Shown piece after piece: positions 35,125-35,507 of a DNA stretch of 64,000 nucleotides. The notes beneath the pieces were generated by a model. It did not search any database. It saw nothing but the letters and a program-made list of their open reading frames with translations, and was not told the DNA's origin. Numbering within the stretch: the stretch's first letter is position 1; every line of letters begins with the position of its first letter. Both the position numbers and the translations under genes were made by a program. Origin of the DNA: Tautonia sociabilis (lineage in GTDB: Bacteria > Planctomycetota > Planctomycetia > Isosphaerales > Isosphaeraceae); NCBI RefSeq assembly GCF_003977685.1, contig NZ_RYZH01000028.1, forward strand, positions 1 to 64,000. The letters run 5' to 3'.

Positions 35125-35507
35125 GACCGGGTAGCTCAGTCGGTAGAGCAGCGGACTTCGACGCCGCCGGCAACGGCGCGCACCTGGAGCCTCCTCCGGG
35201 AAGAAACCGAACCGGGGGAGTGGATGCCGCAGTATGCTGGGACGCCCTGAGAGCCCGCGCCGCCACAACGGCAGCCGGTGACGGCAAACGTGACGGCCCG
35301 AAAAGCGCGCGGGATTGGGTCATCAGCAGGCAAGGGCGCCGGCGGATCGCCGGGCCCAGCCCCAGAGACTCGACGCGGCACACCTGCGACGGTGAAGGGA
35401 GAGTCCAGACTCCAACCCGGAACACCCCCTCGGGGCGAACCGGGGTCGGTGAAAGCCGATGGGGTAGGTTAATCCGCTGGTCGTGGGTTCGAGTCCCACC
35501 CCGGTCA
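35125..35507 (+). tRNA. trnK-UUU: tRNA-Lys(UUU) interrupted by a group I intron
   Basis: The exons (35125-35158 and 35469-35507) join to a perfect 73-nt tRNA. It has acceptor GACCGGG/CCCGGTC, D arm GCTC/GAGC with loop AGTCGGTA, anticodon stem GCGGA/TCCGC with loop CTTTTAA, variable loop TGGTC, T arm GTGGG/CCCAC with loop TTCGAGT, and discriminator A. The spliced anticodon is UUU, and the loop and variable-region sequence match bacterial tRNA-Lys. The 5' exon ends after position 34, so the intron sits between U34 and U35. CCA is not encoded. The last three bases of the tRNA are also the stop codon of the minus-strand HTH gene. Confidence 0.88.
35159..35468 (+). ncRNA. group I self-splicing intron in tRNA-Lys, 310 nt
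   Basis: The interruption has the expected group I ends: the 5' exon ends in U and the intron ends in G. The catalytic core is visible as AGACTCGACG (35366-35375) and GAGAGTCC (35399-35406), which pair as P7 and closely resemble the core of cyanobacterial tRNA-Leu introns. GC-rich hairpins near 35162-35178 (CGCCG/CGGCG) and 35425-35435 (CCCC/GGGG) fit peripheral P2- and P9-type stems. No homing endonuclease frame exists inside. I could not assign P1 and P3-P6 with certainty. The position matches that of cyanobacterial tRNA-Leu(UAA) introns, U34/N35. Confidence 0.82.

Follow-up and report, generated by a model that had tools for sequence, protein, structure and literature searches.

A predicted group I intron in the anticodon loop of tRNA-Lys(UUU) in planctomycetes of the family Isosphaeraceae, with counterparts in other phyla and phages

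Results and Discussion

A split tRNA-Lys(UUU) gene

The stretch of Tautonia sociabilis DNA analyzed here (64,000 nt, hereafter the window) very probably carries a tRNA-Lys(UUU) gene that is interrupted by a group I intron in its anticodon loop, between U34 and U35. Once the 310-nt insert is removed, the joined exons give a 73-nt tRNA-Lys(UUU) with a full cloverleaf, including a perfect 7-bp acceptor stem (GACCGGG/CCCGGTC), the anticodon loop CUUUUAA and a complete T arm, the CCA end not being encoded. The original prediction had proposed such a gene in a planctomycete, and its exon lengths (34 and 39 nt), its intron length, the U before the 5' splice site, the terminal G and both P7 strands proved right to the base. 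The features of the gene are as follows (window coordinates):

35125 to 35158, forward strand: 5' exon of tRNA-Lys(UUU), 34 nt, mature nucleotides 1-34, ending C32-U33-U34; border taken from the intron-free orthologs L087-L090
35159 to 35468, forward strand: predicted group I intron, 310 nt, G+C 70.6%, terminal G at 35468; covarying fold in 36 aligned orthologs and RF00028 matches in orthologs
35187 to 35189, forward strand: GAG of the internal guide, pairing with C32 U33 U34 (P1, with U34·G at the splice site); invariant in 36/36 and so without covariation support
35225 to 35230, forward strand: P3 5' strand, TGCCGC; three of six pairs changed on both sides
35235 to 35240, forward strand: P4 5' strand, TGCTGG; pairs invariant in 36/36
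35323 to 35328, forward strand: P4 3' strand, TCAGCA; from the fold of 36 orthologs, letters checked in the window
35365 to 35371, forward strand: P7 5' strand with bulged A35366; P7 100% paired in the 36
35375 to 35380, forward strand: P3 3' strand, GCGGCA, pseudoknotted with P7
35381 to 35394, forward strand: P8 hairpin, CACC...GGTG; one pair with both-side changes, in 8 sequences
35401 to 35406, forward strand: P7 3' strand, GAGTCC; from the fold of 36 orthologs, letters checked in the window
35469 to 35507, forward strand: 3' exon of tRNA-Lys(UUU), 39 nt, nucleotides 35-73, starting U35 U36 A A; border identical in 36/36

When both strands were searched for split tRNAs whose acceptor, anticodon and T stems pair fully, the window gave a single match, at 35125-35507. 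The splice border and the Lys(UUU) identity are settled by comparison, because the intron-free genes of four relatives (G017-G020, all of genus g13) read GGACTTTTAATCC.

Distribution and descent in the Isosphaeraceae

The survey of trnK in relatives that had been proposed with the prediction took in 45 genomes of the order, which represent 21 genera of one family. BLAST found the intron in 36 of them, an exon-exon match (i.e., an intact gene) in the four g13 genomes, and neither form in five (G013, G016, G021, G025, and G035). A pattern search of the same 45 genomes for an intact tRNA-Lys(UUU), allowing up to three mismatches, gave exact matches only in G017-G020 and none in intron carriers, the weaker matches listed being tRNA-Lys(CUU) and other tRNAs. 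Several relatives share genes flanking the split tRNA with the window, and two of these genes also border the intron-free gene of G018, the one intron-free genome of the four for which wider flanks were compared; the intact gene of G018 occupies the orthologous locus.

Broadly, these data agree with the vertical inheritance suggested originally, at least within the family. In a cross-family tree that took in 17 of the 36 family introns, and in which branches are long and several forks unresolved, these 17 introns and one from a viral contig (L154) form one clade (99/99), which fits one acquisition and later descent, i.e., an intron that would have entered once, in an ancestor of most or all Isosphaeraceae, and been inherited from there. 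Given its placement among the family introns, the L154 contig may itself be host flank.

A second group I intron lies elsewhere in the window's genome (G000:C11:20415-20700, L124; RF00028 score of 52 bits), in a CAU tRNA (tRNA-Ile2-like) and after U36. Introns of this type were extracted from 26 relatives, three of them g13 genomes (two with an intron-free tRNA-Lys), and they form a separate clade in the cross-family tree. The tree of these 26 introns, for which the root was chosen by hand and most inner branches are unresolved, sets g19 apart from the rest (100/100), and favors neither loss of the tRNA-Lys intron in g13 nor its never having been gained there.

Two further observations concern individual genomes. 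G009 has two tRNA-Lys introns, the second of which (L079) is nearly identical to that of G015 (L058) and probably reflects assembly contamination. Five genomes hold, elsewhere, second copies of tRNA-Lys exon 2 together with 7 to 21 nt of the intron tail (L093, L094, L095, L096, and L097), which were found by BLAST and not by a regular-expression search; in the four genomes with both on one contig, the copy lies ~6 to 74 kb from the gene. These copies look like the attachment-site repeats of integrated elements.

Decoding of AAA in the window's genome

The assembly of the window's genome comprises 6.76 Mb and is 94.8% complete, so that an intact copy could be missing from it, and the model RF00005 marks 70 places in it. 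At these places ARAGORN called tRNA-Lys only with the anticodon CUU, once as an ordinary gene on contig C73 and once within a degenerate array on contig C100. This array consists of 23 ARAGORN tRNA calls on one strand, many of them low-scoring (G000:C100:77383-80225; L063:2383-5133). RF00005 and ARAGORN thus found no intact tRNA-Lys(UUU) in this assembly and, since the other tRNA-Lys genes are CUU only, no other AAA decoder is seen; as far as an assembly of this completeness goes, the tRNA is single-copy, as had been supposed.

We next consider whether the split gene might be a silent relic, with AAA read by another tRNA and the intron no longer harmful. AAA is indeed rare, accounting for 20 of the 368 lysine codons counted in 32 long ORFs of the window, and there are two tRNA-Lys(CUU) genes, albeit one within the degenerate array, that might be thought to take over. 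However, a tRNA with C34 is not expected to read AAA, and conservation of the exons, core and splice sites extends to all 36 introns across many genera. Moreover, no genome has both an intron-bearing and an intact gene among the 45 members of the order or among 12 others. We therefore consider a relic very unlikely, and retain a working tRNA-Lys(UUU) gene with a group I intron as the preferred reading. On that reading, AAA decoding throughout a bacterial family that contains the culturable type strain Isosphaera pallida seems to require a ribozyme.

Group I fold and predicted splicing

The fold was derived from an alignment of 36 complete introns, 281-338 nt long and drawn from 35 genomes of the order, of which G009 gave two. 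From these RNAalifold returned P1, P2, P3, P4, P5, an extended P5 with three more covarying stems, P6, P8 and a P9 hairpin, and P7 was put into this structure by hand before scoring. So completed, the structure has 98.0% of its cells paired and both-side changes in 30 of 76 pairs; none of 500 shuffles scored as high on any of five measures, and slid structures were only 30-40% paired. The stems follow the canonical group I order with the P3/P7 pseudoknot, are nearly always paired (P3 99.5%, P4 100%, P5 97.2%, P6 97.2%, P7 100%, and P8 100% of cells), and show both-side changes in P3, P6, P7, and P8. Other elements are invariant across the 36 introns, namely P1 and P4, which are accordingly without covariation support, the U·G wobble at the 5' splice site (U34 with the G of GAG), the CTT that ends exon 1 and the G that ends the intron. 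The last P7 pair is A-U in 26 introns and C-G in 10, the window copy being C-G, and P10 is weak, with three pairs in 17 introns, two in 10 and one in nine (the window among these nine). By analogy with G264-C311 of Tetrahymena, we take G35367-C35405 to be the guanosine-binding pair, and the intron may resemble subgroup IC3 (the type of cyanobacterial tRNA-Leu and Azoarcus tRNA-Ile).

The Rfam group I model (RF00028) did not report the window copy, either at E ≤ 1 or at the gathering score. Among 16 loci searched with this model, four matched at E ≤ 10 (L083, 57.2 bits; L084, 54.1; L061, 42.0; L041, 37.2), and only L083 and L084 exceed the cut-off of 50 bits; the tRNA-Lys introns of G037 and G034 also score above it. 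The lack of a group I covariance match, named beforehand as a ground for rejecting the intron, is thus true of the window copy and untrue of orthologs. The silence of the model on the window copy might be expected of an insert that is removed by proteins (an archaeal- or eukaryal-type splicing endonuclease), or of a group II or other insertion. Against these stand a group I core with covarying P3, P7, and P8 and the RF00028 matches of orthologs, and 310 nt is far above the <100 nt that a review section gives for archaeal tRNA introns (PMC4033280), which leaves such inserts highly improbable. On the strength of its covarying fold and of these matches in orthologs, the insert is a group I intron by prediction. 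As also anticipated, no homing endonuclease gene was detected within its 310 nt, a length that leaves too little space for one, and the one fully open frame has no Pfam match.

Splicing would then proceed as follows. In the folded precursor, the GAG of the intron would pair with C32-U33-U34 (P1, with U·G at the cleavage site), and P3-P8 would make up the catalytic core. Cleavage after U34 would be by exogenous guanosine bound in P7; U34 would then attack after the terminal G and so join the exons, and the product would read AAA and AAG. From sequence we infer transcription and self-splicing of the precursor, as well as its essentiality.

A gene built in this way is overlooked by standard tRNA finders. 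The ARAGORN check suggested with the prediction gave a mixed outcome, as a plain run found no tRNA in the whole window, whereas a run with introns allowed (-i) did locate the split tRNA but set its border one base off and called tRNA-Asn(GUU), here (L001) and in many relatives. We dropped this Asn reading as next to impossible, for the intron-free orthologs are Lys(UUU) with an identical tRNA body, the window's genome has a separate tRNA-Asn(GUU) gene (L017), and the intact gene is fitted only once that border is shifted by one base.

Comparison with known introns

The cyanobacterial tRNA-Leu(UAA) intron is taken to share both the U34/N35 position and the CUU end of the 5' exon with the window's; the host tRNA and the phylum differ, and the Isosphaeraceae copies have an extra set of covarying P5 stems. 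Phage tRNA-Leu(UAA) genes (those of Atu_ph07 and of a 735-kb phage, see below) are likewise split at U34/N35. In their passages on the subject, reviews list bacterial tRNA group I introns in tRNA-Leu, tRNA-fMet, tRNA-Ile and others (PMC8450103, PMC4033280, PMC3984707). The tRNA-Ile(CAU) and tRNA-fMet introns (Azoarcus-type, Acidovorax, Burkholderia, Gloeobacter, Synechocystis), as described in part of one of these sources, resemble the present one in being group I introns of the anticodon loop that hide the tRNA from annotation (PMC8450103), but they sit in other tRNAs. The group I introns of tmRNA, present in 21 phyla (PMC11915505), are likewise short, mostly lack an endonuclease and interrupt a tRNA-like RNA, but lie in the T-loop rather than in the anticodon loop.

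In the portions of the open-licence PMC literature covered, we found no report of a bacterial tRNA-Lys with a full-length group I intron. One passage does claim that the tRNA-Lys of Gloeocapsa sp. PCC 73106 has such an intron in its anticodon loop, at nucleotides 38-74 and with a length of 37 to 49 nt (PMC5733544), which would be too short for a group I core of ~200 nt, in contrast to the 310 nt of the window's intron. Within open-licence literature, tRNA-Lys is thus new as a host of bacterial group I introns, although we do not claim priority, and tRNA-Lys(UUU) is added to the tRNAs in which they occur.

tRNA introns in other bacteria

The prediction had regarded an intron of this kind in a planctomycete as unusual; the host phylum was right, but this view was too narrow, as the same tRNA is interrupted in three further phyla and in phages. 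Within the phylum, a core model (R1) run over 392 genomes found, beyond the Isosphaeraceae, introns in the tRNA-Lys(UUU) of G075, which belongs to another family, and in the tRNA-Arg(UCU) of G363. In the family of G075, five of 170 genomes match, all five in tRNA-Lys(UUU). The G363 intron (L132, contig C174) is a 232-nt group I intron from another planctomycete family. Two genomes from another family of the class (G082 and G144) have group I introns (L101, L108) with flanks that look 23S rRNA-like by eye.

An exon-pattern scan of named genome contigs, limited to inserts of 224-284 nt and to fixed exon letters, gave 16 stretches, seven of which are introns (L137, L139, L144, L146, L147, L148, and L150). 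Their hosts are metagenome-assembled genomes (MAGs) of Planctomycetaceae, Blastopirellula, Gemmataceae, two Sphingomonadales and one Gemmatimonadetes, and the strain Agromyces terreus JCM 14581. RF00028 returned nothing in the genomes of L146, L148, and L150. The remaining stretches were rejected, eight of them being runs of intact tRNAs in tandem and the ninth (L140) a partial tRNA repeat that flanks an ORF. Full-length matches occur in three of 249 genomes of the Agromyces family and in seven of 249 of the sphingomonad family; six loci that were fetched there proved to be Lys-type, and other matches look like tRNA-Leu(UAA) introns. Among 12 further genomes, the 11 intron bearers have no intact tRNA-Lys(UUU), and G509, from the genus of G075, has an intact gene. 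Judging from these loci, in which most carriers outside the Isosphaeraceae are MAGs whose single contigs may be misbinned, predicted group I introns of tRNA-Lys(UUU) reach three phyla beyond Planctomycetota, as well as phages.

Viral and phage introns

Fourteen viral contigs of 6.9 to 381 kb, some identical to each other, carry an intron in tRNA-Lys(UUU). Viral exon-pattern scans yielded one intron among three stretches, two among five and seven among 12, and a core-pattern scan yielded 79 loci, seven with a tRNA-Lys context (three of them already known) and 72 without a script-detectable tRNA. Several viral introns are supported by RF00028, the best scoring 79.8 bits on the 54-kb contig of L157, which also encodes 23 ARAGORN tRNAs in 14 kb along with a polynucleotide kinase, an RNA ligase and an HNH endonuclease (PHROGs). 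At L202 (IMGVR_UViG_3300019776_000919), the tRNA-Lys intron is ~655 nt long and holds a PDDEXK_5 ORF (E-value 2.3e-21).

Isolated and annotated phages add further cases. In Gordonia phage Daredevil, an isolate, a tRNA-Lys(UUU) that is missing from the annotation contains an intron of 238 nt; a 484-kb phage has one in tRNA-Lys, and a Microcoleus phage has one in tRNA-Arg. At L249, L250, and L253, group I introns also interrupt tRNA-Leu(UAA), namely in Agrobacterium phage Atu_ph07, in a 735-kb phage and in a 595-kb phage, where the intron is ~700 nt long. A 2014 review states, in its section on the subject, that all phage introns so far lay in protein genes despite the many tRNA genes of phages (PMC3984707); the present survey shows group I introns in phage tRNA genes.

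The phage tRNA-Lys introns form no single clade in the cross-family tree and are scattered around the bacterial ones, a topology that permits, without proving, their spread by phages. Taken together, one might picture the anticodon loop of tRNA-Lys(UUU) as a recurrent landing site of group I introns, in which guide pairing with C32-U33-U34 would allow moves among U34 tRNAs (Lys UUU, Leu UAA), phage tRNA arrays, some with homing-endonuclease introns, would seed chromosomal copies, and phages might retain the intron for hiding the anticodon from antiphage ribonucleases until splicing. As a whole we hold this picture to be unlikely. Its phage-reservoir part is suggested by the sequences above. 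The hiding of the anticodon is conjecture; antiphage ribonucleases (PrrC, PARIS) favor the anticodon of tRNA-Lys(UUU) as a target. The route of tRNA introns between phyla is directly testable, given an isolated phage (Daredevil) and a cultured bacterium.

Three viral loci (L173, L179, and L202) at first appeared to be tRNA-Thr(UGU), a reading that was dropped. They would instead be tRNA-Lys(UUU) genes whose border lies one base further on (CUUU|...G|UAAUCC), since only there does the intron end in G and a U precede the splice site. The same one-base-later border also fits the Sphingomonadaceae loci L326, L327, and L329-L331.
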